64,000 nucleotides of DNA, from the NCBI RefSeq assembly GCF_964019385.1, contig NC_088644.1:42479124-42543123 (forward strand). Direction: 5' to 3'. Below are positions 11,006 to 55,366 of this stretch, piece after piece (within the stretch, counting starts at the first letter, position 1; each line of letters opens with the position of its first letter). The translations under genes were made by a program, and so were the position numbers. Origin of the DNA: Sycon ciliatum. Lineage: Eukaryota > Porifera > Calcarea > Leucosolenida > Sycettidae. The notes under the pieces were generated by a model. It had not been told where the DNA came from. It did not search any database and was given only the letters and a program-made list of their open reading frames with translations.

Positions 11006-11040
11006 CAAGAGTCCATAAACCAGTGGGTTATGGACTCTTG
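11006..11040. mobile_element. Mini-palindrome P1 (35 bp) with 7-bp TSD
   Basis: Begins CAAGAGTCCATAA and ends with the complement GGTTATGGACTCTTG. It is flanked by ATGGCAC at 10999-11005 and again at 11041-11047. One of three mini-palindromes in 200 bp. Confidence 0.8.
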
Positions 11041-11085
11041 ATGGCACCGGTACGCGGTGCACCGTACCGGTGCACCAGTCCAAAC

Positions 11086-11136
11086 CATGGAGTCGTCAAA
11101 TACGGTATTACAAATACGGTATTTGACGACTCCCTG
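11086..11136. mobile_element. Mini-palindrome P2 (51 bp)
   Basis: Arms GGAGTCGTCAAATACGGTAT and its complement, ending GACGACTCCCTG. Flanks GTCCAAAC (11078-11085) and GTCCAGGC (11137-11144) match at 6 of 8 positions, consistent with a decayed 8-bp TSD. Confidence 0.7.
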
Positions 11137-11156
11137 GTCCAGGCCATGGGCAGTAT

Positions 11157-11202
11157 CAAGAGTACATAACCCCCCCCCCCCCGCGGGGGTTATGTACTCT
11201 TG
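11157..11202. mobile_element. Mini-palindrome P3 (46 bp) with 7-8 bp TSD
   Basis: CAAGAGTACATAACCCC is mirrored by GGGGGTTATGTACTCTTG around a C-rich centre. GCAGTAT precedes (11150-11156) and follows (11203-11209). The duplication extends to 8 bp if the ambiguous terminal G is assigned to the target. Confidence 0.8.
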
Positions 11203-11354
11203 GCAGTATTCAGTAACCCCCCAGCCCCCAGCCCATGGCCCAGGAAAGAAAGCCCAGGCCAGGGGATAGGGGAGTGCGACAGTTACCGTAAAGTCGCGGA
11301 TAAAAGCCGGGCTTATAAGCACATAAGCCGCTTTAGTAGCAGTAGTAGAATTAT

Positions 11355-11721
11355 TTAATATTTTGATAGGAAGGCCCTACATTGTTCATTCTTTTGTTCC
11401 GGTGCATCCATAGCGGAACATGCAGCTCTTTGCTTCAAGAAATCTTTACCAGCCGCTGCTGTAGCTCTCACACCACTGCCACTACGAGATCCCAGGTGTC
11501 TTTTTCTTTGGCATTACCCCCAGCACAGAGTACGGCTGGCTTTTCTCGGATTGGCTATCTCGCTGCTGACCGGTGGAATATGCTGCCTTCCACTGTTCGT
11601 ACTTGTACCGATTACCGCTCATTTATTCGCTCATGCATAACCTTCCTAGGGGCTCCCGTAAGAAGACCATAGGTCTGTGGGAAACACCCTAGTAAAATAA
11701 AAGTTAATAATAATAATAATA
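11355..11721 (+). mobile_element. LINE fragment, ORF2 C-terminus and 3' end
   Basis: The frame to 11672 ends with LAADRWNMLPSTVRTCTDY and FLGAPVRRP. This aligns with the C-terminus of the LINE at 46852-47065 (SDRWNALPADIRTIP, GYPVKRP). The 3' sequence after the stop contains GTGGGA...CCCT and a (TAA)n tail at 11702-11721. 5' truncated. Confidence 0.75.
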
Positions 11722-11734
11722 CGAAGTAGTGGTT

Positions 11735-11800
11735 GCGACCTCGGCGATGATTTGTGTGGGGAGCAAACCCTTTTCTTACAAATAATAATAATAATACAGA
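11735..11800 (+). mobile_element. Short LINE 3' end with (TAA)n tail
   Basis: GTGTGGGGAGCAAACCC followed by TTACAAATAATAATAATAAT. The same 17-mer core recurs at about 21450-21470, followed by GTAATAATTAT. It probably represents severely truncated LINE 3' ends. Confidence 0.5.
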
Positions 11801-11831
11801 CGTCTTTCTGCTTCAGGCTTTGTTGTTATAC

Positions 11832-11905
11832 ATGTTGTTGTTGTTGATTTTTATTTTACTTCGCAAGGCCAAACGGGCAATGGTGCCCAATTCTATGGAA
11901 GCGAA
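11832..11905 (-). mobile_element. LINE 3' end hairpin and (CAA)n tail
   Basis: Read on the minus strand: GGGCACCATTGCCCGTTTGG, then TTGCGAAGTAAAATAAA and a CAACAA tail. This terminal hairpin and motif recur at 27575-27632, 27177-27220, 32500-32554 and 48391-48440. Confidence 0.75.
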
Positions 11906-11927
11906 TTTCAAAAGGGAGAGAGCTACG

Positions 11928-11930
<3 letters not shown>

Positions 11931-12010
<80 letters not shown>
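11931..12010. repeat. (GA)n microsatellite with G tract
   Basis: About 80 bp of GA followed by about 11 G. Polypurine mirror sequence capable of triplex formation. Frames across it are artefacts. Confidence 0.97.
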
Positions 12011-12020
<10 letters not shown>

Positions 12021-12099
12021 AGGAAGGGAGATGATAAGCAATTTTGTAGTGTCAACAGAGCGATTTTTCAGTGTCAATAGAGCGATTTTGAAGCGTTAA

Positions 12100-12960
12100 A
12101 GGGGAAGTTAAGGCAAAAATTAAAATTTCACCAGTTGTAGTCTTCGGGGTGCTGAGTCGAATGGTCGTGGTCCGAGGAAGCTGAGACGCTCCCTTCCTAC
12201 TTGAATCCCAATCGAACTCGCGCACTTCCACCGAAACTGGGTGACTGCGCCCTACTAGATGGGGATTTGTATGCAAAATGTCACTAAAAGCGCCATTTCG
12301 TTCTTATAAAAGCACGAATGACCGCGATTGGCCCATATGTTGTAGTCTTTGGGACGCTGAGTCGACTGGTTTTGGTCCGAAAAGGCTGCGATGCAGCGTT
12401 CCTCCTTTATTCCCAATCCAACATGGTTGAACAAGCGGTCACGTGGTCCTGGGTGCCCAAATCACCTGGTCACCACGCCAGCGGGTGACAACTTTCACAC
12501 CAAGGTTCAACTCGGGTTCAACTCGAGTGACAGGACTGCACCCAAAAAAGGTCAAACAGGCTAGTAAGTTGTACCCTGCAGGCACGGTGACCAGGTGACT
12601 GGTGTACGCAGGAGCACGTGACCGCTTCTTCAACCATGTTCGATTGGGAATAAAGGAGGAACGCTGCATCGCAGCCTTTTCGGACCAAAACCAGTCGACT
12701 CAGCGTCCAAAAGACTACAACATATGGGCCAATCGCGGTCATCCGTGCTTTTATAAGAACGAAATGGCGCTTTTAGTGACATTTTGCATACAAATCCCCA
12801 TCTAGTAGGGCGCAGTCACCCAGTTTCGGTGGAAGTGCGCGAGTTCGATTGGGATTCAAGTAGGAAGGGAGCGTCTCAGCTTTCTCGGACCAAGACCATT
12901 CGACTCAGCACCCCGAAGACTACAACTGGTGAAATTTTAATTTTTGCCTTAACTTCCCCT
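12100..12960. mobile_element. Large foldback element, copy 1 (861 bp, TTAA flanks)
   Basis: Nearly symmetrical inverted repeat: arms about 12100-12447 and 12614-12960, ends AGGGGAAGTTAAGGC and complement, spacer about 165 bp. TTAA lies on both sides (12096-12099, 12961-12964). A second copy is at 23502-24353. Apparent frames in the arms appear in both orientations and are not convincing proteins. TTAA targets are typical of piggyBac, but no transposase is present, so the superfamily is inferred. Confidence 0.85.
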
Positions 12961-12964
12961 TTAA

Positions 12965-13115
12965 AGGGGATGTATATGTTGTGCGCGTTCTGTCGATTTG
13001 GAAAATCGATCGATTTTCTTGCGCGATCTGTCGATCGACAGATCGCGCAAGGATCGATCGATCGGAAAGCGGTGGCGAAACCATTCAAAACAAATCGATC
13101 GATTTGGAGCAGCTC
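12965..13115. repeat. CGATCG-rich palindromic module, copy 1
   Basis: Contains many TCGATCGA units and a perfect self-complementary 32-bp stretch at about 13019-13050 (core TCTGTCGATCGACAGA). It starts AGGGGATGTATATG directly after the TTAA of the adjacent foldback. The same module abuts the second foldback copy. Confidence 0.85.
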
Positions 13116-13781
13116 CGAAACGTCGTACAGTGTATGTTTAGGACTTTGGTGAACAGCTTTTCAAATGAAAGAAACCAGTTACGGTACCTTTTCTGAGTGC
13201 AATCTTCTTCCCCAAATAATTCAAAAATCAGTTCCTTCCGAAAATTCCATCGTGCTGGACCTCGAAGCTGAACGTCATAAGCAAATAGTCAAGCCGTGTG
13301 TCGTCTGGATATGCAGTTGTTTGTCATAGCCAACATTCTTCTGGTCCGTTCGTCCTGCCATTTTCCTGACGATCGCAATGAATACGAGCAGCTCTCATGC
13401 TCAGGTTAGTGTTTATTGATCTGTCTCTGCACCCACTGCAAGGTATAATTTTTGTGATGCAGCCACTAGCCCATTGTGGAAGTAAGGGAATCACCCAGGT
13501 TCTTCGGATTCTCGTCCTGTCCGAAAAATCTCCACGTTTCAACTTCTCATCTTCCCCTCAGGCATGAGCTTGCATATTCATATTAATTTTTGTGTTTGCT
13601 TTGACAGTGCATTTCATAGGTATCGTTCAGACTTTTAGGGCCCTGTAAAATTGGTGTTTTCCTTCCCGACAGTGATAATAATCGCAATCTATAAAATACA
13701 TGCGCAGTCATTCTATAGTGTGATAAAACACAAGTGTAACTGTAAGAAAAGAGAAAGAGAGAGGGTGAATAAAACAAACAT
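13116..13781. other. No gene recognised
   Basis: Unique-looking sequence. Frames are short and without domain similarity. It ends with the 11-bp target sequence of the LINE that follows. Confidence 0.4.
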
Positions 13782-13792
13782 ATGTGCAAAAT

Positions 13793-15458
13793 GACGGTTG
13801 GACCACCTGGAAATCTGCGCCCTATTGTCCTCCTTACATCATTACGCAAAACGCTCTCCATTATTACATTGCGAAGAATATCGTCGAAAGTCGGTGAGTA
13901 CTTGTCTCCGACGCAGAGTGGTTTCAGAGCAGGCCGATCTACAGCGGACCTTGTTTGGAGCCACAGATGGTTTGCAGCAACATGTCAGCATTATCGGCGG
14001 GAAATGACCATTCTTGGAATCGACATGTCCAAAGCATTCGACTGTATACATCGTGACAAACTGTTGACAGTTCTCGAGTCTTTCATGACGGAGGATGATG
14101 TTCGGCTGGTTAGAGTGCTGTTGACCAACACAACTCTGCAGGTACGCATCGGCAGGGCAGTATCAGAGTCCCTTGAAACTACAATTGGCACCCCGCAGGG
14201 TGATTCTCTCTCCCCGGTGTTGTTTGTTATATACTTAGAGGCAGCACTGAGAGATCTGAGGAGCACCCAGGTGGCACGAAACAGACCGCCAATGGATCAA
14301 AGCATCAACATTCCATTTGAGCTTGTCTACGCAGATGACACTGATTTCATAAGCCTTAGTCGTCAATGGCTCACAGAGCTCGAACCGGTCATAGACCACA
14401 CTCTCGGGCAGTGGGCCCTGAGAGTCAACAACACCAAAACTGAGTGGACAGAGCTGGGTCGATCTGTAGACAGAATTGACGAGCGCTGGAGGACATCCCG
14501 AAAGCTGGGCTCACTCCTGGGCGACATTGAGGATGTGACACGTCGCAGGCAATTGGCCGAGGCTGCCTTCCGATCCATGTGGTCTCTTTGGAAGCGCCGA
14601 GGACTGATCCGAGAGCCTCTGCGTATGAGGTTGTACTGCGCCTTTATCATGCCGATACTTCTCTATAATTCAGGCACCTGGGGCCTGACGGTTGCTAGCG
14701 AACGCTCCCTGGACGCTTTCCATAGAAGGCAACTCAGGTCACTTCTCGGCATCACATGGCCACAAAAGATTAGTAATTTGGCGTTGTATGCCCGATGTGG
14801 AGTGGAGCCGGTGTCGGACTTGATCCGAAATTCACGCTGGAGTTTATTCGGGCATGTGCTTCGCCTGGGTAAGGACACGCCAGCACGATTGAGCATGGAG
14901 CAATACTTTCAGGCACCCGAGGGGAGGTACCGTGGGAGGCCGAGGGTGACACTACCAATAAAGCTCCACACCGATCTGTCCCAGTCGAACAATGGGCACC
15001 TGCGGAGTGTTGAGGACTTGCGCCGTCTGGAGCGGATTGCTGTGGACCGTCCAGCATGGAACGCGCTGGTGAAGAGTGTTTGTGCACACCCTCGTCACAA
15101 GTAGAAACAGCCATGGCACCCTTATAAACTCATAACAACCATTCTATAATAATATTACTATTTGAATCTTTTAATAATTATCTGGCAACTCAACCTCATA
15201 CGTATAATTATCTGGCCACCCATTGACCATGATGCTACATGAGGAGACAATAGTGATGACATTTTTCCAATGAGACCAATTTTATGACGCTCCATGTTAC
15301 TGAAGGACTAACTTCGATCATTGGTTTTGTAGAGCCCCATTCTCTAGGAGCTGTCTACATCTGCTTTGTTTCAATGTCCAGCATAAGCGAACGTGTGGAT
15401 CAAGCATAACTGCTTGGTTGACGCTGCCGCGGGAATGCGTATAATAATAATAATAATA
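13793..15458 (+). mobile_element. 5'-truncated LINE with 11-bp TSD and (ATA)n tail
   Basis: ATGTGCAAAAT lies at 13782-13792 and again at 15459-15469, immediately after an (ATA/TAA)n tail. The copy therefore starts inside the RT domain and keeps about 350 bp of 3' UTR. These are the expected marks of target-primed reverse transcription. Confidence 0.92.
13794..15104 (+). CDS. Reverse transcriptase ORF, 5' truncated but open
   Basis: About 436 codons stay open from the truncation point. RT blocks in order: LRPIVLLTSLRKTL, QSGFRAGRSTADLV, GIDMSKAFDCIHR, GTPQGDSLSPVLF, then the catalytic YADD, followed by a thumb region and RRQLRSLLGITW. The C-terminal part has WSLFGHVLRL and RGRPRVTLP. No apurinic endonuclease domain remains. 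The reading frame upstream of 13793 belongs to the target duplication, so the first ATG is not genuine. The terminal layout differs from the CR1/L2-like LINEs elsewhere in the window; I do not assign a clade. Non-autonomous as it stands. Confidence 0.9.
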   Translation, partial: TVGPPGNLRPIVLLTSLRKTLSIITLRRISSKVGEYLSPTQSGFRAGRSTADLVWSHRWFAATCQHYRREMTILGIDMSKAFDCIHRDKLLTVLESFMTEDDVRLVRVLLTNTTLQVRIGRAVSESLETTIGTPQGDSLSPVLFVIYLEAALRDLRSTQVARNRPPMDQSINIPFELVYADDTDFISLSRQWLTELEPVIDHTLGQWALRVNNTKTEWTELGRSVDRIDERWRTSRKLGSLLGDIEDVTRRRQLAEAAFRSMWSLWKRRGLIREPLRMRLYCAFIMPILLYNSGTWGLTVASERSLDAFHRRQLRSLLGITWPQKISNLALYARCGVEPVSDLIRNSRWSLFGHVLRLGKDTPARLSMEQYFQAPEGRYRGRPRVTLPIKLHTDLSQSNNGHLRSVEDLRRLERIAVDRPAWNALVKSVCAHPRHK

Positions 15459-15469
15459 ATGTGCAAAAT

Positions 15470-15839
15470 ACAGTTACGGTGCTAAGGAAAGAATGTGGAT
15501 GCCGTGACATGTTCTTTCTGAATGCATTGGTCTGGCTTACGCTTGTGAATGTAAACAGCATCTATGACTTTTAACTGATTGAAATTCTTTGCAAAACAAA
15601 CAATACTACAATTGTAAACCGAGAATCATTATACGCCAAACGACACGGGTCACTGAACAATAAATGCTTTAACCCTGCCGTGTTCTTCTTCTCATCGCCA
15701 ACCTCCCCTTCATCTTCATCCTACAGCGTAAAATGAGTGAGGTGTGGTTTGAGATATGGTTGTTTTTTTAGTTGCCGTGAGAGGGAGAGACAGAGAGAGA
15801 GAGAGACAGAGAGAGAGAGAGAGACAAAGACAGACACAC

Positions 15840-15877
<38 letters not shown>

Positions 15878-16210
15878 AGGGAGGGAGGGAGAGAGTGAGG
15901 CTCTGTCGTTCTGGAGATGTGTTGGCGGTTTTCTCTTTCACCTCTCTTTTCTCTTTATAGTTTTTCACTAATTCGTCATTCAACCCAGAGCTGTGTTTGT
16001 TGGCTGGTCGACCACAGGATTTTGTGTGGGGTTGTTCTGGAGTGTCGGACTTTTGTTGTAGTGTGACTGTTACAGTCCTGAAACACATGCAGTAGACACA
16101 CTACTATAAAATACACTAAAAATGTACAACATGCGCACATTTCCTGGATTGATCAGTGTGGATCGATGGCAATACAGTTGTAGTCTGTAAGCAAACAGCG
16201 CCATTTTGAC
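15470..16210. other. Intergenic, with GA satellite
   Basis: Apart from the polypurine repeat at 15779-15897, no gene or repeat is recognised. Confidence 0.4.
15779..15897. repeat. (GA)n / (GGGA)n microsatellite
   Basis: GA repeats with interspersed CAGA and a GGGA-rich end. Low-complexity frames across it are artefacts. Confidence 0.95.
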
Positions 16211-17146
16211 TAGGGTGAAATGGTTAGATAGGTTAACCGGTTATGTAACCGTTAAGAATACACGAACAGTTAACCATATGCATATGGGTTAATCGGTTAT
16301 TTTCTTTCAATGTCCGCTGTACATAATATACGTGACAGCATGTGCGTACCCTGTCAGTACTGTGCACAATGGATGTACGGCGTGTATCTCCCTCATCTCT
16401 GGGGTTGCTCCCCATATTAGTGATGCTTGCGTATGCTCATGATGAGGTTGAGTTGATTAAATGACAAGGTGATGGTGCAATCCGAAGCCCAATGGAGCAT
16501 ACAAAATATTAAAATATGTTGAACCTTTCGTTCAGAAAGTAGTGGACATTCACGCAACTGCATTGTAAATATAAAGGGGGTTTGTCAACTGGCAACCGCT
16601 CTATTTAGTTGTTATTCACTCTTTGTTGAACCTGCTCTGGAAAACTGAGCAAAATATAATATGCATCCACTATACATATTGTAAACAGTTTCGTCTGAGA
16701 CAAAAATGCGATAATACTCATAATACTCATAAAGTATACTTGTGAAGACAAAAACTTTCAAGACGTTTGTAATGAGCCTGAAATGTGTCCTTTTATGAGT
16801 ATTATACATATTGTAGTGATTGTTTTGGCAGTGCGTGAGGTCATGGTACCATGGATACATGGATTTACAGTCATGTACAGCAATGGTACATGAATACAGG
16901 CTACATGTACAGTTTATCTCTTATAGGTTGTAGCAAGAGTAGATAAACAAGAGTGTGCAACTCTGGATCTCTTCTGCACAATCTGCACATACCCCTGCCT
17001 GTGGCAGCATTTTTTGTAGACGTCACCTTTTTTTCAGAAAAACGCGCATTTTGACGCAGAACAGTGTGAGAGCACGTACTGGGCACCGACCTTGTAATGT
17101 AAAGCCCGGCCAAGTGCACGATGCAAACTTTCCAAAAGACCCGCAG

Positions 17147-17492
17147 TAGGCCTTTCCGGATTATGTGTTTGCATATTTTTGCATTTTGGGGGTCAAAATG
17201 CATTTTGTCCATTTTGACCCACTTTGGGCCAGGGAGTCGTAAAATACCGGTATTTTACGACTCCCTGCAAGCGATAGGTACTTCACGATCACCATGAATG
17301 ATCACCATGGTGCCAAATGTCACGCGACTAGCTGTCGCCATTTTGTTACCATGGCAACGGTGGCATTTTTTTGTGCTTTTTGGGTAAATTTTTGCATTTT
17401 CTTCAGAAAAAAATTTGATTTATAGGGGTTTTTCAAAACACTTTCCATTTCCATTTTAGACCAAGAAAAAACGCATAATCCGGAAAAGCCTA
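17147..17492. mobile_element. hAT-like MITE nested in the Mutator-like MITE
   Basis: TIRs TAGGCCTTTCCGGATTATG and the complement of TAGGCTTTTCCGGATTATG. The exact 8-bp TSD ACCCGCAG lies at 17139-17146 and 17493-17500. The related copy near 53.1 kb has an unoccupied version of this site (single ACTCGCAG), which confirms the insertion. Confidence 0.92.
17230..17267. mobile_element. Mini-palindrome P4 (38 bp)
   Basis: Perfectly self-complementary, with arms CAGGGAGTCGTAAAATACC and complement. It lies inside the nested hAT MITE. No flanking duplication is evident (CTTTGGGC against CAAGCGAT), so this copy may be old or may have arisen without transposition. Confidence 0.75.
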
Positions 17493-17928
17493 ACCCGCAG
17501 CGCATGCGTCATAGAAAAGATTACGTCAACAAAAAATTCCGCCACGGGCCAACCCATCCCGGAGTTGCACACTCTTGTTTATCTACTCTTGGTTCTAGCC
17601 TATAACCTTTTGGTTAACCGCAGCCCTAACTTTGACATATATGGTTTATATTATGTGCCCAACTCGCTATAACATGGACCTCTCTAAAGCATAACACTTG
17701 CCGTACCCCAGAGAATATATAGTGAGGTCTCGCCTGTAAGATGAAGTGTGATACCTAGTTATTGCATACATGTACATGTAGGTGTGAACATCATTATAAT
17801 TGAATTCACGAATCAATTTCATTTCTTGGAGCTGACTGCTTTAATGTCCTCCTCGAATCCCTTCGCACTTTTCCAGTTCATTTCAAATGAAGTTGCAGGA
17901 ACTCAATGAATACCTTGGGCACCATCTA

Positions 17929-18461
17929 AGGCTGCGTATACACGACAACGCTGGGGGTGAAAGCGCAACTAAATCCTTTCGGATGCATGGTTCATTTACA
18001 CGGTACGCGGAGCAAAACGTAATAGTTGTACACCAAAGCGGAAGAGAACCAAAACGCTGGCCAAGGTGGAAGAATTTGAAAACGGAAATGTTCTGCCGGA
18101 TAAATTTGGGTGTGTAAACAGTCGAAACGGTCTGCTGGCCTCGTTTCCGTCACGTTTGTTCCGTTTTCGGCCGTTCACACGGATCCGACAATAACTCTTT
18201 TTTTTACAATTTTCGTCATGTGACGAGTGCTGGTGTGTGGCCTGTTTTCGATTATTCCTTGAGTGTGATTGGTGCTTCCACGACAACACTCGGCACATGA
18301 CGAACTTTTGCGGATCCTTTGCTCCCGTGTAGACGCGAGAAAACGATACAAACCGAGACCACCTTGGATCAGCTTTGATCGTGTAAACGCACGAAAATGA
18401 AAAAAAGAAATGCGGGACTGAAAACGGAAAATGGCCGTGCGTTGTCGTGTAAACGCAGCCT
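17929..18461. mobile_element. Harbinger-like MITE (533 bp)
   Basis: TIRs AGGCTGCGTATACACGACAA and the complement of AGGCTGCGTTTACACGACAA. Adjacent TAA (left) and TCA (right) fit a mutated 3-bp TWA duplication. No transposase. The open frames within are chance. Confidence 0.75.
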
Positions 18462-18545
18462 CAGAAGACATTAGGCCCAGTTGGGAATGTTCCTGTAAAA
18501 TAAGAACATTACACTGTAATAGGAAGTGCAGGTGCCTTGAATGTA

Positions 18546-18690
18546 CAGTCCTGCTCAATGAAATCCAGTCGTGTCACTCAAGTTTGCGCCTTGCACCATT
18601 TCGCAGCCCAGTGTTCGCAGGTCTAGGGCTGCGCAACGCCCGGTACTTGAGTGACGCAACTTGATTTCAGGATTTCATTGGGCAGCACTG
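18546..18690. mobile_element. Tc1/mariner-like MITE (145 bp)
   Basis: TA at 18544-18545 and 18691-18692. TIRs CAGTCCTGCTCAATGAAATC and the complement of CAGTGCTGCCCAATGAAATC. Inner CACTCAAG is also inverted. Confidence 0.85.
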
Positions 18691-19026
18691 TACGAAGGCA
18701 ATTCTCCCATACAAACAGCATGGTGCTGCTGACAAGATGAGATTCACTAAAGTGGACTTTCTTTAGAGGATGGCTCAGCTTTTGTATACTTCTGTAGCGT
18801 CGTTCCCATGCCATGAATTTAATGATGAAATTCGTTCGCGAAACCAAGAGGCTTACATCACCTTACTATTATTGTACCTTCACTTTCTTTTACCTTTTTT
18901 CATGCAGGATTCTGAAAGCTAGAGGAATCCCACTAGCCCCAAGCACTGAGCTCACGGCTTCCAGCCACGAATCAGGCATGGTGTATCACGACATCTATAT
19001 GTTTTGCATCCATTTGATTACTAGTA

Positions 19027-19319
19027 CCGTAAAGTACCGCCAGAGCGCCCCACTATCTCGTCCTTTCGTGGTCGTATTGTGTAGGTGGTCTCCCGTCTGT
19101 AGGTCATACGACACGAACTTCGTACACATATTGCACGTTGTGCAGACAATCCGTACCTTCGAGCGGACACGAGCTCCACACAAAAACCTTCCTCTGACGT
19201 TAGTACACCATACACACTTCGTTGCATTCTGCCGTACGATTTTCCTTTCCCTGGACCCTGGCTGTAAAATCAAGGTGGGGCGCTCTCGCGAGACGGGGCG
19301 CTCTGGCGGTACTTTACGG
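19027..19319. mobile_element. TA-flanked MITE (293 bp), CCGTAAA ends
   Basis: TIRs CCGTAAAGTACCGCCAGAGC, extending through GCCCC, with TA on both sides (19025-19026, 19320-19321). Single ends of similar type (CCGTAAAGTCGCGG) occur at about 11286 and 49420-49436. Confidence 0.88.
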
Positions 19320-19559
19320 TATACCATTCACACATAACATGATCTCGCTGTGCCCATGGTGCACTGTAGACTCAACATCCCGCTTTAAAGTAAGCTTCAC
19401 AATCACACGTTAATGCTCCTAACATGTTATCTCGCACTTGATGGCATTACTCTATTTCTGCCTTTAGTATTAGACTCTACACTATCGCTCATCGCGTATT
19501 TGACTCTACTCTTTTTCACTGCTATTATTATGCTACGTTGATGCTCAATGTTAATATTG

Positions 19560-20440: not shown

Positions 20441-20445
20441 ATTAC

Positions 20446-20467
20446 CAAGAGGGGTTATGTACTCTTG
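20446..20467. mobile_element. Mini-palindrome P5 (22 bp) with 7-8 bp TSD
   Basis: Starts CAAGAG and ends GTTATGTACTCTTG. ATATTAC is repeated exactly at 20439-20445 and 20468-20474. It is among the smallest members of the family. Confidence 0.7.
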
Positions 20468-23357: not shown

Positions 23358-23501
23358 TCACAATCGATCGATTTGGGTTCTTTTTTTTGTTGCGCGATCG
23401 ATCGATTTTGCGCGATCGATCGATCGTTGCGCGATCTGTCGATCGACAGATCGCGCAGCAAAATCGATCGATGTGGCAGATCCATAGATGGCGCACAACA
23501 T
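23358..23501. repeat. CGATCG-rich palindromic module, copy 2
   Basis: Multiple CGATCGAT units and the same perfect palindrome (core TCTGTCGATCGACAGA, about 23430-23459). It ends GCGCACAACATATACCC, joining directly to the second foldback. Confidence 0.85.
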
Positions 23502-24353
23502 ATACCCTAAAATCAAATTTTCACCAGTTGTAGTCTTCTGAGTGCTGAGTCGAATGGTCTTGGTCCGAGGAAGCTGCGATGCTCCCTTCCTACTTGAATC
23601 CCAATCGAACTCGCGCACTTCCACCGAAACTGGGTGACTGCGCCCTACTAGATGGGGATTTGTATGCAAAATGTCACTAAAAGCGCCATTCCGTTCTTAT
23701 AAAAGCACGGATGACCGCGATTGGCCCATATGTTGTAGTCTTTTGGACGCTGAGTCGACTGGTTTTGGTCCGAAAAGGCTGCGATGCAGCGTTTCTCCTT
23801 TATTCCCAATCGAACATGGTTGAACAAGCGGTCACGTGCTCCTGGGTGCCCAAATCACCTGGTCACCGCCCCAGCAGGCGACAACTTTCACACCAAGGTT
23901 CAACTCGAGTTCAACTCGAGTGACAGGAGTGCACCCAAAAAAGGTCAAACAGGCTAGTAAGTTGTAACCTGCAGGCACGGTGACCAGGTGACTGGTGTAC
24001 GCAGGAGCACGTGACCGCTTGTTCAACCATGTTCGATTGGGAATAAAGGAGGAACGCTGCATCGCAGCCTTTTCGGACCAAAACCAGTCGACTCAGCGTC
24101 CAAAAGACTACAACATATGGGCCAATCGCGGTCATCCGTGCTTTTATAAGAACGAAATGGCGCTTTTAGTGACATTTTGCATACAAATCCCCATCTCGTA
24201 GGGCGCAGTCACCCAGTTTCGGTGGAAGTGCGCGAGTTCGATTGGGATTCAAGTAGGAAGGGAGCGTCTCAGCTTCCTCGGACCAAGACCATTCGACTCA
24301 GCACCCCGAAGACTACAACTGGTGAAAATTTGATTTTAGGGTATACTTCCCCT
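23502..24353. mobile_element. Large foldback element, copy 2
   Basis: Arms about 23502-23842 and 24002-24353 closely match the element at 12100-12960. The right end has TTCCCCT then TTAA (24354-24357). The left terminus lacks about 12 bp where it meets the CGATCG module. Confidence 0.85.
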
Positions 24354-40300: not shown

Positions 40301-40947
40301 GTAAAATGGCAATAACTAAGATAAATTGTGCACTCATAACAACAGCAAAAATGAAGAAAGTCAAGTTCCATAACGTTTTCTTGTGACTGTCATCAGTGGA
40401 ACGCCGTCACATAAAAATGTAATAACTAAAACTCACACTTATATACATGTAGCTAATATGGTTTCAGGTAGAAATACAGCAGCTAACAAGTACAAAAAGC
40501 GAAGTTTGCACCTTTGCAATGTGTGAATATAGTGTATGTGAGAAAGGTAGTGGCAGATGAATGTGATCATGTGACTGTGTGAATGAATGTAATGGTGCGT
40601 GTGTATTACTTGAACGTTGTATCACTCACACTCTTCAAGTAGTACACACGCACCATTACATTCATTCACACGGTCACATGATCACATTCATCTGCCACTA
40701 CCTTTCTCACATACACTATATTCACACATTGCAAAGGTGCAAACTTCGCTTTTTGTACTTGTTAGCTGCTGTATTTCTACCTGAAACCATATTAGCTACA
40801 TGTATATAAGTGTGTGTTTTAGTTATTACATTTTTATGTGACGGCGTTCCACTGATGACAGTCACAAGAAAACGTTATGGAACTTGACTTTCTTCATTTT
40901 TGCTGTTGTTATGAGTGCACAATTTATCTTATTCATTGCCATTTTAC
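40301..40947. repeat. Long inverted repeat, 314-bp arms, 19-bp loop
   Basis: Arms 40301-40614 and 40634-40947 differ at only about five positions by eye (about 98% identity). Transcription through it would give a very long hairpin RNA. Confidence 0.93.
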
Positions 40948-43980: not shown

Positions 43981-45175
43981 TAGGCTCTGGCGGATTATGC
44001 TTGCGAAATCATGGAATTATGCTTTCATGGATTCTTGCATTATGCTCGTAAAATCCTCATATTATGCTTTGGCACCCGGGGATATATATTCACTTTGTTG
44101 TACTTATGGAGCCTCAAAGTTCGGGAAATTGTGCCTTTTTTCGTACTTGCTAGTTGCAAGTGGCCATCAGTACAACAAAATACATTTGTATCCCCATACC
44201 AAGATATCCATGCATGTTAGAGATCAACATGGAAAAGAGAAAACATTACTTCTTCTATTCATGGTGAAAAGGAGGACAACATGTTACGAGTTATGACCAA
44301 CTGTCCACCAACGTAACCAGATCTTATACAGTTAGTGAGTGCGACAAAATGGCACAAAACTGACAAGGAATACTGAGACATTCGGCGGCCTGACACCTAG
44401 CTCACCATCCGAATTCTTCTATTCATTACTTGATTTCTTTTGTACTTCAGTAAAAATATTATTTCATTGCCAAAGTAGTTTGAGTTACCTTTGAAAATTA
44501 TCATGTCTTCATAACATCATACTCGTCCAACCGATGTTACCCTCACCCTGCGAATAATCAGCTCATCTCTGCCGTAGCTCCGCCTCTCCTTCCATCATGA
44601 CCGAACATCAACTATAATTATATCAATTTAGAGGAATATCCATAGCCTGCAGTCATATCATGGCTGCTAAAATCCAGACTACCAGAGGTCATGACCTCGT
44701 AACATGCATAATGTACAAATCAGGGAGTAGTACAATACTGGTATTGTACTACTCCCTGGTACAAATGTAATGTACATGTACTGTAGTACACGGAGTTTTG
44801 CGGACTACCCGCCACTATCTCGTCCGCCCCGGGATACCTGATGAAGTCTGATTCACTCGCATCTTCTGCTACATGTACTGTGTCAGTGTGAGAAAGAACT
44901 TTGAAGAAGACGAGTTCGAGCACACAATACTGTATTGCTATGATTTCTTCCCTGCTTTTCATTGAAACAATATCTGCATGACCTCCGATCCCTTTACCAT
45001 GCAGACCACCTGCACTGATCAGGTGCATTGTACACAATTGTATAGCCTACATACTAGAACTGTGGTATAATCGTGTAGTTATGCTCCTACCTCCGAGAGG
45101 ATGCCAAATTATGCTCCAAATTTTCAACCACCAAATTATGCCAATAATTATGCCGGCATAATCCGCTGGTGCCTA
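43981..45175. mobile_element. hAT-like element (1.2 kb) inside LINE ORF2
   Basis: Ends TAGGCTCTGGCGGATTATGC and the complement of TAGGCACCAGCGGATTATGC. Exact 8-bp TSD CTGCTGCC at 43973-43980 and 45176-45183. Hosts mini-palindrome P6. No transposase is evident. Confidence 0.93.
44721..44758. mobile_element. Mini-palindrome P6 (38 bp) with exact 8-bp TSD
   Basis: CAGGGAGTAGTACAATACTG and complement ending ACTCCCTG. GTACAAAT at 44713-44720 and 44759-44766. Confidence 0.92.
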
Positions 45176-47065: not shown

Positions 47066-47427
47066 ATGCACCACTGATTTTTTTGCCAGGCTTGTACGAG
47101 CGTTGATCTACCACTGACTACCGGTATGGCGGCAGTTTTACTATGCACCGTACATAGCGCATGCACTCTTTTTTTCTTTTCTTTTTATAATAACGGCGAA
47201 CAAAACACAATTTGCCATGCATGGCGGAGGATTGGAAAACAAATCACTTAATGATGACGTCACATGTGATCAGAGAGCAAGAGAAGCATAGCATAGTCCG
47301 CACAATCACGGGCCAAGGCCCAACGGGACACCCTAGCCTCCACGACAGCCAGGGAGGCACACCACTGCCACGATTCAGGTTGTGCGTGCTTCCCCTAGCT
47401 GCATCTCATGTTTGGCATTAAGTGGTC

Positions 47428-47432
<5 letters not shown>

Positions 47433-47467
<35 letters not shown>
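47433..47467. repeat. Poly(A) run of about 35
   Basis: Adenines on the plus strand at the 3' edge of the RLE-type element. It may be the tail of a plus-strand retro-insert whose body lies in 47.07-47.43 kb. No gene is seen in that body. Confidence 0.8.
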
Positions 47468-47468
<1 letters not shown>

Positions 47469-49264
47469 AGCCATCCATTGGAGGCTGCCAAACTCGGCGA
47501 GCCCCACGCAGACACATGACACTCGATCGCAGCAGGGCGAAAGACAGCCTGCAGCGGAGGTGGGCAATTAGCACAGAATACGCCTCCCTCCCACGTAGCG
47601 ACTGGAGATGTGCAATCCGGCTCACCAGTGCAGCGGCACCCTTGCCGCATCCTCCGGTGGAAGAGAGCACAAAGGGAGAGTGGATCGCTCCACTTCTCGG
47701 ACTCTCCGATCGTATCGACGCCGTTTCTCTTGCTCGTGGTGCCGGTAGCAGGCAGAGAGAGAGGAGGAGGTGCGGTTCGAAGACGCATAAGGGTTGAACA
47801 CCCGTACATCAATAAAAGTGCGTTCGAACCGACCCCCCCCCCCCCCCCCAAACTCCACTGGCCACCACATCCAAACGAGCTTGATCCTCGGTTCATGCAG
47901 ACCGGAGCTGAAACTGCTCCCCAGGCAGGGGTTGGAGATGTGGCTCCACTGCGACGTTGTGGGCGACACCCTTCAATGAGCTTGCCAGTATGTCGCGCAC
48001 CTCGTTGTGGCGGATCGAGGGGAACCCACCGAAAGGACAGGACAAGGCGTGAGCAGTGGTGAATGCCTTCTCGCAAACACAGGTGGTGGGCAGGCGAGAA
48101 GGCGTCCAACCGTAACGGAGGCAGAGGCCATCCCGGAATTCCCCCTTCGACAAAGTGTAATAGTGACATGTACCCAGCTAATGTCTCTGCTTCGTTCAGG
48201 GAATTCAGAATAGGAAGTCTGCTGTACCACCCGCTCTTTTCTTTTTACTTTTAAAAGCGATTATTTGTAACATGGAAATTTGTTCCTTGGCTCACCATCT
48301 GAGTTCTTAAAGCTATTATTCATTTTCTGCTGCCCCCGGTTATTTCTTTTATTAGTATTAGTATTTTCTTTGACTTCGCTTTCTTGTTATTGGGCAACTT
48401 GCCCGTTAGAATCTGCGAAGTAAAATAAACAACAACAACAACAAAGCGAAGCCATGGCGAGCGATGGGTCGGCAGGTGAGCCAGCTTGATGCTCCCCTCT
48501 CCTCTGCCAGACTGATAGCGAGATCGAGTTCGCTGTGCTCGGTGCGGAACGTATCGGCAGCTATCTTCATTGCCTTTCTGGCCTCAGAGCGAGCCGGACT
48601 CTTGGCCCTGCGGACACAGGCAAGAGCATCATCGAGGTGCTCCTCTTGCGCCATGATCTTGTCGTACAGGGCAGTGGTGATTAGCCTGGAGGTGCCGTAC
48701 TGTGAGCCAAAAGTGGTAGGGTTGGCCACGCCGAGGCCTCCATGCCGGCAGGGGAAAGTGAGCAAAATGCGCTCAGCTTCACTGGGCGCCGTCCGTCCAC
48801 TAATGGCAGGGATTAGGCGGCGGTGGATGATGTCCTCCAGGGGTGTCAGCTGTTCTGCAGCACCATCGAGAACCCGACACAGGAAGGACCAGCGGTGTTG
48901 GAGGCTGTTCACCAGTGCAGAGTAAGCTGCTTGAGGCTGTGACCGGGCGAAATCTGTCAGCTTGCACAGCTCCTGCGACCAGGTGGCCACCTTGGAAGCC
49001 ACAAACTCCTGCACAAACTGATCAGTTTCGATGGCTGATCCAAGGTGGCGGCACCCGTCAGTGGTGATAGACACACCCGTGCCGGCGAAGATGGTCTCGG
49101 CTGCCTCTAGCTTGTCCCGCTTGACGACGAGGACAGACTTGCTGGGGTTAATGAAATACCCGAACGCCGGCCCATCCCCGACGAGTCGGTCCCACCACTG
49201 GCGGAGAGGGTTGAGCCCGCCACCCGCGGACGAGTCATCCGCATACATGTACCAGCTCTGGCGT
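47468..49264 (-). mobile_element. Retroelement with RT and C-terminal nuclease-like domain, interrupted
   Basis: RT palm at 48443-49264: QSWYMYADDSSAGGGL, WWDRLVGDGPAFGYFINPSK, GCRHLGSAIETDQF, then LIPAISGR, CRHGGLGVA and SSWLTCRPIARHGFA. After a 285-bp LINE insertion (48156-48440) it continues LSKGEFRDGLCLRYGW, C.C.KAFTTAHALSCP-like, IRHNEVRDILAS, EPHLQPL, DVRVFNPYAS, HHEQEKRRRYDRRV, then CRLSFALLRSSVMCLRGAR, with frameshifts. The IRHNE..RD and DVRVFNP blocks suggest a PD-(D/E)XK-type endonuclease. Known: such RT plus nuclease proteins are common uncharacterised repeats in sponges and cnidarians. 5' truncated. Confidence 0.8.
48156..48440 (+). mobile_element. LINE 3' end inserted in the RLE-type element
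   Basis: C-terminal remnant DMYPANVSASFREFRIGSLL, 3' UTR, GGGCAACTTGCCCG hairpin, TGCGAAGTAAAATAAA and (CAA)n. ACAAAG occurs on both sides (48150-48155, 48441-48446). Confidence 0.85.
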
Positions 49265-49289
49265 GTTCCTGCGCATGCACTCTTGACCT

Positions 49290-49436
49290 ACCCGATCGAT
49301 CCGCGCTTGCATAGAAGCCAGGCTTCCACGCGCGACAGGCTTATATGCATTTAACCCGTTTGATTTTCATATCAGGCTTCTATCCGCGATGTGCTTGTAT
49401 GCAAACACGGCTTCTATCCGCGACTTTACGGTAGTT
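49290..49436. repeat. CCGTAAAGTCGCGG-type MITE end
   Basis: GGCTTCTATCCGCGA occurs twice and the right end reads GCGACTTTACGG then TA. The complement CCGTAAAGTCGCGGATA also occurs at 11286-11302. The left terminus is unclear. Confidence 0.5.
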
Positions 49437-49486
49437 TGCCGACGACCGTTGCCGGGCGTTGGGCCGACATGTCGACAGCTCACAAC

Positions 49487-49514
49487 CAGGGAGTCGGTAT
49501 TTTACGACTCCCTG
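49487..49514. mobile_element. Mini-palindrome P7 (28 bp) with exact 8-bp TSD
   Basis: CAGGGAGTCG...CGACTCCCTG. CTCACAAC at 49479-49486 and 49515-49522. Confidence 0.92.
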
Positions 49515-49522
49515 CTCACAAC

Positions 49523-50090
49523 CAGTCCATGCGCGCCAAGGCCAACAAGGGCCAAAAATGACCCGAATCTTTATGCAAAATGAAGATGACGACGCCGCTT
49601 TTTTTGACTTTTTCTGTGACCATTTTTGAACAGATTCACCATTTTGATCGTCGTCGATTTGGCATGGAAGACTTTCATGAATACTATTCTAACTTGGCCT
49701 GCTGAGGGCTAGGATAGTCCCTAAACAAAATCTGGAAGCCGTTCCCCCAGAGATTTTTCCGTCATGTTGCAGCAGAGCCACCTTTCTCAATTGTGGGTCG
49801 TACAAAATTTATGATTTTTGGATGCCAAAGTACTTGATGGCGTGAGAACCAATAAAGAACTACCGGACACCGCCCAGACCTCAGGTATGTGTAGTTCATT
49901 GTCCTAGGCTGCTCATAAAGCAAACATTGTCTTGATAGTAACTTGCCCAAAAATTTGGCGAATTTTCCTAATACCCTGGTTGCCAATGCACGAGAATCAC
50001 GAAAACTAGTATGGCTGGTGGATTTCTGATTTTCTTCTCATAAACCTGAGAACAATTATCTACGATGTTACAAATATTAATGGGTGGTTT
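49523..50090. other. No gene recognised
   Basis: AT-rich sequence without recognisable frames or repeats. Confidence 0.4.
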
Positions 50091-50757
50091 CAGGGCCTGC
50101 TCTAGACATTCAACACAGCCCGGTCAGAGTGTACCTGGCGCATGCAGGCCAGCCGGGTCAGCCTGATCATCCGGCAGAAAAACAACCAAAAAGCCTGCTC
50201 AAAACGCAGGAAAACAGAAAGGCGAATTTATTACCGGAAATCGGAAATTTTAGAGAACAAGGCGAACTATCGAAGTCCGCAAACGTAGAAGGTAAACGAC
50301 ATGAATGCAAAGCAGTTCCATTGGATTCTGATTTAACAATTTGAAAAAAAGGAATTCTGTTTTCTAATTAGTGCTCCATCGTCCGAATCACCAGTTGGCT
50401 GAAAACTTGTAACTGTGTCAAAAGCTATAGCCAAAGTTACGCTTTTGACTGCCTGCCCCATCGACTTTGAATGTCCTGACTTCCTGCTCGCCGCTGGCCA
50501 GATCGCGCTCGAACCAGTTGACCCCAGTTGACCCTAGCCGAGTTTCTGTCGCTTGTAGACTGTAGTGTGTACGGTTACAAGATTTGCAACAGATGGGGTC
50601 CGCAAATCGTAAAATACCGGTATTTTAGGAATCCATTGTCAGTTTGAGACATTTTTCAGCCGGGTCAGACTGGACCCGGTGTTATCTGTTCAGCCAGGTC
50701 GTGCAGTTCCCCAGCCGGGCGCGTGACCCGGCTGACCCGGCTCTCCAGCAGGCCCTG
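50091..50757. mobile_element. TIR element with CAGGGCCTGCT ends
   Basis: CAGGGCCTGCT at the left and its complement at the right. CCGGGTCAG motifs are inverted inside both ends. No clean TSD. A decayed mini-palindrome-like core (TAAAATACCGGTATTTTA) lies near 50612-50629. Confidence 0.6.
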
Positions 50758-51913
50758 GTTTTGAATGTGAACAGATACACTTCAAAAGGCTGATCGCGTT
50801 CTCAGATCAGCTGCAAACGAGGGTCAAAATTGTAGTTCAGAGCGATGTCCATTGAGGCATTTCACCTGATTTCGAAGTTCATACATGTTAGTCATGGGAA
50901 ATTGGGTAGAAATAAATAATTATGTATGCACTCTTTTACTCCATAGACAAAGACGTGTTTCGGAGTCTCATGGTGTTCAGCAAGCGAAATTATTACTTGA
51001 TCATTTCTCGGTGAATTAACTCACTCCGCCATTCCACACTGCACTCTTAGCCGACCCACACCGCCTTAACTCACTCCACCATTCCACACTACACTCTTAG
51101 CCGGCCCACAACGCTTGCACATCACCAGCACAATTGTCAGAAAGCAAAATTTCATTGTCATTTGTACAACTTCCAGCCATTTCGTGCCCAATCAGTCCAA
51201 ACATGTAATGCAGTAAAACCTATTAAGGGGGGCACTACAATTATTATCGCCTGCCCCATAAGCCAAGAACAAAGCACAGCATTACAGTGAACTGACCCTG
51301 GACAAGAGGACCATAATTATCGTAATGACCATGCGCGCTTATACGCACGCTTCTTCGTATTTGTAATTTTTGCAGGTCGATTGATCTCACACGAGGCGCA
51401 TGTGCTTGTAATTGTGTTACCAGTATGGAATGTGGAAGCTGCACATTAAACCCTGTAAAGATGGTACAGTCAGACCTCGCTTATCAGGTCCTCGTTTATC
51501 CGGATCCCTCGCCATCCGGAAGAAAATCGCTGGTTACCGATGTGCAGCATATGTTATGCATACAACATAACCGGACCTCCCGATCCGCATACCGTTGCAT
51601 GATTTTGTGTACAAACTGGTTAAAATGTGTACAAAAAGCTTTGTCGTATCCGGTTGCAGAAGCAGGAATCAGGGAGTTGTACAAGCAAATGAGGTCCTTG
51701 ACCTGCTGCATGCATACGGATAGCACTCAGTTGCATGCACTTGTCATTTTTCTCGATTGTTTTACATACTGTGCACGCTAGTTGTACTGCATAGGACCCG
51801 TCTACATGTACATGTATGTATGATGCCACTGCTTTTGACATGCCACATGCATATCCAGTATGTGTGTTCAGTTATCCGGTTCCCTCGCCTATCCGAGGTC
51901 TGACTGTATAAGT
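50758..51913. other. No gene recognised
   Basis: A 56-bp near-duplicate containing TTAACTCACTCC.CCATTCCA lies at about 51017-51110. Nothing else is supported. Confidence 0.4.
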
Positions 51914-52015
51914 AGGGCTGAAGCGATTACCCGGTACATGTATACCGATTACTCGGTCATCGATCGATAATTCCTCACAGTCAACTAATCGTTATGTGAA
52001 AGATTACTCGTTAGG
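51914..52015. mobile_element. Partial copy of the TAGGGCTGAA hAT MITE
   Basis: Begins TAGGGCTGAAGCGATTAC and contains CGATTACTCGGTCATCGATC, as in the element at 52267-52689. No right end. Confidence 0.6.
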
Positions 52016-52115
52016 GATGTTGAGTCCAAAAAGTACTGGAAACCCCGTTTTGTGAAGTAACATAGTTTGAATCAGTTTCCACTGTGAGAATGCAGTTGCC
52101 AGGGGTATGGCTTGT

Positions 52116-52997
52116 GCTGTCCCCCGTGAATTCCGCGGCAGAATATCAGAAATTCCGTGCAGAATTCTGCGGCTGAAAACAGTAAATTCTGCGCTAATTC
52201 TGCAAATCCTTCCAAATTCTGCGGCAATTCTGCAAGGGAAATGAGCGTAAAAAAAGTTCTAAAAACTAGGGCTGAAACGATCATCCATTTAGCCCAATCG
52301 CTCACTCTTTATCATAACGATCGATTATTCGATTATAAACTTAAGAGGCCGCACCTGGAATATGTACGTGGAATGGCCAAAAGTGGAAATATGTACAAAT
52401 TTTGCACAAAAATGCTATGTGGCATGACTGTCCACTAATGGGCAGCGTTACAGACAACAACTAGCCAACAATGGCTGAGAGTGATGCGGAATGTTCGGTA
52501 ACACTGCCAAGACGTGTATAGTACATGTCCTGTGTACTATTATACTCTGCGCTGCATGCACTGCGCGTATAAGAAATTGAAAATTTAAAAAAAAACGGAA
52601 AATAATCGTAATCGGTAATCTAAACGATTGCTCGATCGTTAGAGTTATCAAACGAGTACTCGATTATTCGGTATAATCTTTCAGCCCTACTAAAAACAGA
52701 TTGAATTTCCGCAACCCAACCGAAGTTTGTTGTCCCTATCAATTCTGAACCAAAATTATGCGAAATCCTGGTCCAAAAAATTGAAAGCTCCAAAATGTAC
52801 AGTGCAAGTTGATTTTGAAAGTCACAAGTAGGGGTTGGTTTGGCTGTGAAATCTATCAAAAGTCTCCAGAAAAAGCAGTTTTTCTCTCTTTTCTGCAATA
52901 TTCCGCGGGATTTTCTGAATTCTGAATTCTGCGGACACTACCGGATTTTGCGGAAATTCTGCAATCCACGGAATCGCGGAATTCACGGGGGGACAGC
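52116..52997. mobile_element. TIR element hosting a hAT MITE
   Basis: GCTGTCCCCCGTGAATTCCG at the left, with its complement (one extra C) at the right end. AATTCTGCGGCAATTCTGC-like repeats inside. TSD uncertain. Confidence 0.7.
52267..52689. mobile_element. hAT-like MITE (423 bp)
   Basis: TAGGGCTGAAACGAT and complement of TAGGGCTGAAAGAT. Exact TSD CTAAAAAC at 52259-52266 and 52690-52697. Contains CGATTATTCG motifs. Confidence 0.93.
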
Positions 52998-53050
52998 TTC
53001 TGTTATGAGGTTCAATTGAATTCAAAATACATCGTAGTTTACATGTATAC

Positions 53051-53290
53051 TAGCAAGAGTAGATAAACAAGAGTGTGCAACTCGCGGATGGGTAGGCCCA
53101 CGGCGGAATTTTTGTTGACGTAATCTTTTCGACGACGTACGCGCTGCGAGTCTTTCGGAAAGTTTTCCCTCGTGCTCTTGGCCGTTTTTTGCACTACAAG
53201 GTCGGTGCCCAGCACGTGCACTCACACTGCTCTGCGGCAAAATGCGCGTTCTTCTGAAATGGAATTTTGTTCAGTTTTCAGTCTTTTACC
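53051..53290. mobile_element. Mutator-like MITE, truncated, unoccupied site
   Basis: From AAGAGTAGATAAACAAGAGT (53055) it matches, in inverted order, both arms of the element at 16935-17590 without the 346-bp hAT MITE. The distal TIR is lost near 53290. Confidence 0.85.
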
Positions 53291-53551
53291 ATTCTTAGAC
53301 ACTTTCTTCACCATACACTGTGTTTCTTCACCATACACTGTGTTTCTTTGGCCGTAAAAGGGGCAGTCTCTACTAGTCTTGTATTCCGAGTTTCCTGGTT
53401 TTCATGGAGATAGAAAAGAAGTAATTATTGTGAAATGAGTTTGACTTTTGCAGTGTTAATGGAAGAGAGCGTGTGGGCTCTACTCTTAACTGATAGAAAA
53501 GAAAGCACACCAATAGCACTTCTTACCTGTGTCTCGGACATAAGCACTTTT

Positions 53552-53643
53552 ACTACAGTGCTGGCAACTGAAATCCGACCCCCTTGCCGGCGCGGCGCAC
53601 CGCGCCGGCAAGGGGGTCGGATTTCAGTTGCCAGCACTGTAGT
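53552..53643. repeat. Perfect hairpin, 44-bp arms, 4-bp loop
   Basis: Arms start ACTACAGTGCTGGCAACTGA and end with the exact complement. The centre is GC-rich (GCCGGCGCGG-CGCA-CCGCGCCGGC). No TSD is seen. Confidence 0.97.
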
Positions 53644-53814
53644 TAGTTTTAGTTCTAGCTGCTACAATGTAGTTCAATTTGACTGAAACCAGGGTGTGCC
53701 AGATTACTGATCGAGAAGGCATGCTGCCGCTGGACTGTTTTGTTCCTTTTCTTATGTACTACAGTGAAGGAATCGAAATTGCATGTAGCATGCAATACGT
53801 TTGAAGGTGAAATA

Positions 53815-54239
53815 CAGTCAACTTTGCGTACTGTAAAAGCAGAAATTTTCGGTGGTGTTTTATTTTCGGTAACTTCGGTACCGACAATTTTTACCGAAAA
53901 TAGAACTCACCGAAAATTTCGGTACTACCGGTACTGTATACATTTAGTACTAGTACACTTACCAGGAAAACGGGTTTTACCGAAAAATTTCCCTCCACCG
54001 AACCGCCGATTTTGGAGAATACCGAAAATATTACACCACCGAAAATTTCTGCTTTTACAGTATAACGACACTCGGCGGGGCATCAGAAAAGTGTCCTTAT
54101 TCACGAAGTGTCCTTATACCCGAAGTCTCAATATATGTATTACAGTTAACTTAGATGGGACTTTGCTCTGGGCATGGAAATTCTGTCGTTATTCGCGACT
54201 TATCGTTACATCCGCCGTCGTTATTAGCGAAGTTGACTG
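53815..54239. mobile_element. pogo/Tigger-like MITE with nested MITE
   Basis: CAGTCAACTTTGCG at the left, complement of CAGTCAACTTCGCTAATAAC at the right, TA on both sides. Family member of 21058-21246. Split by 53831-54060. Confidence 0.88.
53831..54060. mobile_element. TA-flanked MITE (230 bp), nested
   Basis: CTGTAAAAGCAGAAATTTTC (about 27-bp TIR) and complement. TA at 53829-53830 and 54061-54062. Removing it restores GCG-TA-TAACGACACTCGG, as in the 21-kb relative. Confidence 0.92.
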
Positions 54240-54994
54240 TAATGGAAAGTCCCCCCCCCCCCCCACATACACACACACACAGAATACCTGCGGTCGAATG
54301 TACTATCATGTGCATGATTGTATTGGTTCAGCACTGTATTCCGGCATGAGTGCTGAAGTTGTTTACAGGTAGAAATTGACGGGGGCGCACCAAGTTCTTT
54401 ACATTACATGTACGTGTACAGTAGAGCCGAGCTTCGATAAAGCTGAGAATGGTCAATGGGGCATATTGTTTTCTACCGTTTTGTAATTCAGTTTTTGTTA
54501 TACACACGTGCACCTTATACGAATGTGCTACAACCCAGAACGCAGCCATATCATTGAAACAGTAACTCAAGTGCAGTGCTTTGCGCACAGATCATACTAA
54601 GAGTCCATCACACCTTTCCCTTGGGGTTGTGGCCTCTTGGATCGTATTCCCATTCAGGCCCACCGGAACCGGTCCGGATGGTCAGGTTATCACCGAAACA
54701 ACTTTGTGGCTACCAATGCATGTTTACTGCCGAGGAGGGCATGTGTACATTGTGTACATTGTGTACCCGCCCATATTATACACAAAGTATGAAAGACTAA
54801 AGTACAACCGGAGCAATTGAAAGCTGCTTCCGGCGGTCCTGCCATTAAAGGCATTCACAATGACGGTTCATAGTTCGTTCCACTTGGACCTTTGCACTTC
54901 ACTGAGAATTGAAACTTACTTCAAGCTGTCCTGAGGGTACATTACAACTTTCAGTTTCGCACGAATCTTACAAAAGAAGTTCATGAGTAATATA

Positions 54995-55366
54995 CCGGTA
55001 TAAATAAAAAATAAAAATAAATTCGACGGGTTCGCGTACCGGGCAGGTCAAGAACAAGGAGTCGTACAACTCCCTGGTCAAGAACCACCTTTCCGCTTCC
55101 GTGGGACGCCACCACCCCATGATCAGGCGTCAGATGCGGCTCCTTAACTTAAACGGTGGGGGAGGATAGATCAGATCCACCAACCATAGGCCAAAGGCCT
55201 AAATCCCATTTGCCACATCCATGATTTACTCATGCCAGGCCACGAGTTCCCAATTAACTGTGGGTCGCAGCACGGTTGGAAAAATCCTTCCGCTTCCAAG
55301 CAGGACTTGAACCTGGTACCTCTCGTTCATTAATCATGGTCTTAGACCAACCCACTGTGCCTGCCT
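54995..55366 (-). mobile_element. tRNA-derived SINE, minus strand, 12-bp TSD
   Basis: ATGAGTAATATA at 54983-54994 and 55367-55378. The head contains CACAGTGGGTTGGTCTAAGA (A-box-like) and GGTTCAAGTCC (B box). The tail is A/T rich. It hosts mini-palindrome P8. A divergent relative of 55805-56113. Confidence 0.9.
55055..55076. mobile_element. Mini-palindrome P8 (22 bp) with exact 8-bp TSD
   Basis: CAAGGAGTCG...ACTCCCTG. GTCAAGAA at 55047-55054 and 55077-55084. Confidence 0.9.

Follow-up and report, generated by a model that had tools for sequence, protein, structure and literature searches.

How do palindromes of a few dozen base pairs come to lie between precise copies of a short target sequence in an animal genome? 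The question is raised by a 64,000-nucleotide stretch of DNA of the sponge Sycon ciliatum (C2:42479124-42543123 of the 538-Mb assembly), the whole of which we call the window, where a preliminary description had listed eight such palindromes with flanking repeats of 7-8 bp, taking them for ultra-minimal transposons or for self-priming hairpin DNA inserted by a hAT-type enzyme. The observation was confirmed as true and precise, but it is better explained by scars than by tiny transposons: the palindromes are very probably excision footprints of DNA transposons of the P superfamily, and insertion of self-priming hairpins appears unnecessary as their source.

All eight palindromes were present at their positions, six of them beside exact direct repeats. 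The repeat lengths held; the single pooled family did not, since the palindromes divide into a family with CAAGAGT...ACTCTTG ends and 7-bp repeats and a family with CAGGGAGT...ACTCCCTG ends and 8-bp repeats (no strand is assigned to any of the eight). The CAAGAGT family is represented by a 35-bp form at 11006..11040, between copies of ATGGCAC at 10999-11005 and 11041-11047, a 46-bp form at 11157..11202, with C-rich filler separating the arms and duplication GCAGTAT, and a 22-bp form at 20446..20467, with CAAGAGG as its left end and duplication ATATTAC. Exact 8-bp repeats flank three members of the CAGGGAGT family: 38 bp at 44721..44758 (GTACAAAT at 44713-44720 and 44759-44766), 28 bp with an asymmetric junction at 49487..49514 (CTCACAAC) and 22 bp with CAAGGAGT as left end at 55055..55076 (GTCAAGAA). 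The remaining two members of that family are a 51-bp form with filler in its centre (11086..11136), whose flanks match at 6 of 8 positions (GTCCAAAC / GTCCAGGC), and a perfect 38-bp palindrome (19+19; 17230..17267) for which no target duplication was found. With at most one mismatch allowed in the ends, three exact-repeat palindromes of each family were recovered from the window and none from 20 dinucleotide-model shuffles; with two mismatches allowed in the 7-base ends the shuffles do yield matches, on average 0.15 with an exact repeat and 1.15 with one repeat mismatch.

Both families proved abundant in the genome-wide search that the preliminary description had proposed, with thousands of copies each, far above control: CAGGGAGT(0-30)ACTCCCTG occurs at 5,578 places (reversed-pattern control, 2) and CAAGAGT(0-30)ACTCTTG at 5,264 (control, 100). 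We read the flanks of 47 strict CAGGGAGT elements (three from the window, 24 from loci L001-L020 and 20 from L021-L040, taken in listing order on C1) and of 27 CAAGAGT elements; both sets hold some copies from duplicated loci, such as L001/L007, L016/L017, L038/L040 and L045-L047. An exact 8-bp repeat flanked 18 of the 47 CAGGGAGT elements and a repeat with one mismatch 10 more, where exchanged flanks give an expectation per element of 0.0005 and 0.0065, respectively; exact repeats of 4-6 or 9-12 bp were absent from all 47, and one had a 7-bp repeat. For CAAGAGT the exact repeat was 7 bp long in 11 of 27, with one mismatch in 8 more, and none of the 27 had an exact repeat of 4-6 or 8-11 bp. 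Duplication length is thus fixed within each family, and the flanking repeats behave as target duplications, as had been claimed. Those of the CAGGGAGT family have T at position 2 in 46 of 56 copies and A at position 7 in 51 of 56.

Three further arrangements were seen during this survey. At L025:90-172 two successive CAAGAGT footprints share GTACTAC target copies, in the order copy, 23 bp, copy, 39 bp, copy. Ten same-direction CAAGAGT ends lie at C1:5684016-5684613, and five of the nine distances between them are 44 bp exactly; this looks like a tandem repeat that arose from an end or a footprint. An 18-bp palindrome with other ends (L019:4222-4239) has ACAGTACTGT on both sides and may belong to another family or be due to chance.

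Empty sites with a single clean target had been named in the preliminary description as a check, to be made in related individuals; a paralogous one was found: the paralogues L038 and L040 lack exactly the 35-bp element of L039 and one repeat copy, a clean empty site. Three other paralogue comparisons agreed with small differences (L031 with L002, L003 with L082, and L007:4414 with L001). Some footprints are common to related regions (L001 and L007; L016 and L017; L002 and L015, the last pair diverged), and therefore at least these are inherited.

Ultra-minimal transposons moving as units of 14-50 bp would likewise produce thousands of copies, many of them between exact duplications of the target, and a clean empty site, and some identical copies do stand at separate sites with different duplications, such as the 28-bp form found at window position 49487 and at L013:4977. 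We consider such units very improbable. Most copies have a junction of their own: of those listed for the two families, 39 of 50 and 44 of 50 are distinct and the commonest occurs four times per list, so that the one sequence common to copies between their ends, which would mark a miniature inverted-repeat transposable element (MITE), was not found. Exact duplications also persist where little remains that could move, namely in the smallest copy, the 14-bp element of L044 (ATTCTAC), and in the 21-bp element at L003:1749, whose right end is reduced to CCTG. Finally, long elements with identical ends exist.

These long elements were traced from unpaired ends. Ten of the 11 convergent CAGGGAGT end pairs examined delimit elements that have the family's ends and exact 8-bp duplications and measure 430 bp to 5.1 kb: one of 430 bp (L004:5328-5757), with an inner block that differs from the searched form, others of 1,193, 1,484, 2,148, 2,231 and 3,440 bp, and four, chosen as wide-spaced end pairs, of 4,534, 5,040, 4,416 and 5,083 bp. 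A duplicated copy of the 2,148-bp insertion (L102) was excluded from the ten. The terminal repeat in its searched form is at least 30-34 bp long and consists of CAGGGAGT, a block that varies among subfamilies, and GGGAGRNGACACG; the two strands hold 612 and 649 of these ends (control, 0). Assuming a matching end on both sides of every long element, there are about 630 such elements against the 5,578 short places, which are thus roughly nine times as numerous. CAAGAGT ends with WCATAACCCC after them were counted 3,563 and 3,021 times (control, 0), at distances that suggest MITEs of some 280-320 bp; the one read, at L014:7426-7705, is 280 bp long, with a 7-bp duplication (ATGATAC) and a terminal repeat that extends beyond CAAGAGTACATAACCCCCC. 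The same ends thus bound elements of 280 bp to 5 kb, and the claim of ultra-minimal transposons was not borne out.

The long elements could also have shrunk in place, that is, by internal deletion after insertion and without excision, through slippage or microhomology between the inverted ends and with the duplication kept. Bacterial transposons undergo comparable shrinkage in nearly precise excision, and the many sizes of the long elements (430 bp to 5.1 kb) show that internal deletions happen here. What speaks to this is where the arms of the short forms end. Arms were measured in elements whose duplication has no more than one mismatch, with identical copies collapsed and total length limited to about 60 bp. 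In the CAGGGAGT family 57 of 58 arms (29 of 50 elements) were no longer than 21 nt, and in the CAAGAGT family all 42 (21 of 34 elements) were no longer than 19 nt. Deletion breakpoints would be expected anywhere in the long repeats, which run on for 13 bp or more, yet 99 of the 100 measured arms stop by 21 or 19 nt. The limit may be 19 nt in most subfamilies and 21 nt in that of CGTACTCAAACTA, the latter value coming from one duplicated locus (L016/L017), and the 21-nt CAGGGAGT arms are mostly due to the CCGG common to both arms of the 38-bp form. On the internal-deletion account the 38-bp forms could have joined at this CCGG, which both ends have in common. The limit holds, however, where filler rules out a role for microhomology, as in L027, L031 and L073, whose separated arms still both end at 18-19 nt. 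The class of 47-77 bp, moreover, has only 454 places in the genome, and among the 50 of these listed 97 of 100 arms were again no longer than 21 nt, with two of the three longer arms belonging to one locus counted twice. Internal deletion therefore appears improbable as the source of the short forms, even though one remnant, discussed below, suits it.

Instead, both target copies were found, each beside a terminal-repeat stub of limited length, as in excision footprints. The stubs are joined in several ways: microhomology, blunt joins and filler account for 12, 2 and 15 junctions in the CAGGGAGT family and for 6, 5 and 10 in the CAAGAGT family, classes that are blurred by point mutations.

Which transposase made them? 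A hAT-type enzyme had been proposed. The T at position 2 and A at position 7 of the 8-bp duplications resemble the hAT target consensus, and hAT matches in the genome number at least 150 (scored from 422 candidates). Eight of these 150 loci were read, 3,240 bp each, and the ends of our families were absent from all eight; three of them have CAGGGAGTTGC at one shared inner place. Excision by hAT elements, furthermore, is not known to leave terminal repeat behind. The coding sequence also speaks against the proposal: an element with CAGGGAGT ends carries sequence of a P-superfamily transposase. We therefore give almost no credence to hAT elements or hAT footprints as the origin of the palindromes.

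The element in question is the 4,416-bp one, L117, which has an exact duplication, ATGTTGCC. It is 99.0% identical, across 1,041 aligned positions, to a further P-type locus, L119, whose 883-aa open frame matches TNP-like_RNaseH_N (PF21787, E = 1.8e-20) and the solved P transposase structure (PDB 6p5a, E = 3.4e-4); its score against PF21788 (0.0084) is under the cut-off. The 570-aa frame of L117 itself is 33% identical over 148 aa (E = 1.9e-15) to a transposase frame in L114 with TNP-like RNase H and GTP-binding domains. Judged from these alignments, L117 appears to be related to a P-superfamily element and to have lost internal sequence. Genome-wide, the P-type profiles PF21787 and PF21788 have 44 and 2 matches. 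Both L114 and L119 have C2H2-like fingers rather than a THAP domain; a THAP-like stretch in L081, a composite of broken frames, scores 20.4 bits (E = 9.3e-4), under the cut-off of 23.9. Pfam scans of the frames in the long elements L081, L101, L103 and L104 detected no transposase domain, and part of the L117 frame, used as query in a homology search, gave no match. The duplication lengths point the same way, the 8 bp of the CAGGGAGT family and the 7 bp of CAAGAGT: Galileo, a P-superfamily element of Drosophila with long terminal repeats (PMC3573991), makes 7-bp duplications as the CAAGAGT family does (PMC3573991, PMC4168063), and therefore either length agrees with the superfamily. We assign the CAAGAGT palindromes, too, to probable P-type footprints. 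The word 'footprint' does not occur in the text of the Galileo article (PMC3573991).

We propose the following course. A long element inserts, duplicating 8 bp (CAGGGAGT) or 7 bp (CAAGAGT) of target. On leaving, its transposase would make a staggered cut, at the boundary of the element on one strand and some 19-21 nt inside the terminal inverted repeat on the other, as the arm limit and the chemistry of the Drosophila P element suggest: there, the cuts that the P transposase makes on the two strands lie at the element end and 17 bp into a 31-bp repeat (PMC7776569). Each donor end would thus retain a target copy and a terminal-repeat stub, and end joining, probably, would fuse the stubs directly, at microhomology or with filler. 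The product would be a short palindrome between two target copies, palindromic since the stubs come from one and the same inverted repeat.

The closest parallel comes from flies. Drosophila P donor ends bear 17-nt tails, and most end joining in the fly assay is ligase 4-independent (PMC2895639); junctions from flies lacking Rad51 read target copy, partial tail, microhomology or insertion, partial tail, target copy (PMC2895639, section 7, Table 1). Like the sponge sequences, these have two 8-bp target copies around partial terminal-repeat tails, joined by microhomology, bluntly or with partly templated insertions (PMC2895639). They differ in stemming from a laboratory assay, in flies without Rad51 (Table 1), with tails of 17 nt (PMC2895639, PMC7776569), whereas the sponge has thousands of natural copies, arms limited to about 19-21 nt and, in a second family, duplications of 7 bp. 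Zebrafish Pdre2, with THAP9, is likewise of the P superfamily, makes 8-bp duplications and excises actively, but its 13-bp terminal repeats are of another sequence, and zfTHAP9 left larger flanking deletions in assays (PMC10983969).

Several observations weigh against the reading as excision footprints. Sixteen of the 47 strict CAGGGAGT elements (17230 and 15 others) have no duplication within two mismatches; in four of these (L003, L009, L016 and L020) a duplication is present beyond extra bases, a few in L009, L016 and L020. At L003:4994-5051 ten such bases stand between footprint and target copy; part of them repeats the target in inverted orientation, which would fit a hairpin at the flank that was opened away from its centre. 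The CAGGGAGT-family elements at L009:4983, L010:5030, L020:8125 and L079:13 carry CAGGC or CAGGCCGG, which either separates the target copy from the usual end or itself forms the end. Only one of six paralogue comparisons was clean, that of L039, and L012 compared with L011 and L029 compared with the window were not. The eleventh candidate pair of long ends, C1:2887773-2888083, has different ends and unmatched flanks. The remnant in L083 keeps about 43 nt of a long-element end, more than a stub, next to CTCCCTGACTCCCTG and with an exact duplication, which counts in favor of internal deletion; it would be explained by gap repair left incomplete or interrupted, not by simple end joining. The transposase link comes from one CAGGGAGT subfamily, in which the transposase sequence of L117 is confined to the region upstream of the catalytic domain and the L119 sequence read stops short of the outer element ends, and the CAAGAGT ends, read in the 280-bp MITE only, are tied to no transposase. 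The internal cut, predicted at about 19 nt and perhaps at 21 in one subfamily, is placed by arm length only. The 38-bp class could alternatively have arisen by deletion at the CCGG in both repeats; recombination there as the main cause of the 38-bp forms was considered and dropped, filler-bearing copies showing the same arm limit. Finally, wild-type flies initially favor sister-chromatid repair after P excision (PMC2895639) and zebrafish THAP9 excision gave larger flanking deletions (PMC10983969), so simple footprints need not dominate.

Apart from the palindromes, the window contains three large foldback repeats (12096-12964, 23501-24345 and 40301-40947), with arms of 399, 387 and 314 bp that are 95-98% complementary, and two similar minus-strand frames 50 kb apart (10090-10848 and 60642-61421), the second of which resembles phospholipid scramblases.

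Scars of this kind are already known; what is new is their scale and the cut distance. We lean, if only slightly, toward the wider conclusion that one animal genome keeps some ten thousand inherited P-type excision scars, with an internal cut that differs from the 17 nt of Drosophila and changes position along with the terminal repeat's variable block. No title or abstract among the literature matches listed described a natural genome-wide set of such footprints, which does not prove their absence from print. A caution follows for annotation, in that small palindromes between target duplications, here in their thousands, can pass for miniature transposons. Excision usually leaves little trace; the staggered cut here would leave a readable stub, and the sponge genome would then preserve a natural record of how germline breaks were repaired in an early-branching animal. 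The stubs would let past excisions be counted, dated by the decay of their target copies and classed by repair junction without experiment, and would yield both a repair spectrum for the sponge and an estimate of how often its transposons are excised rather than persist.

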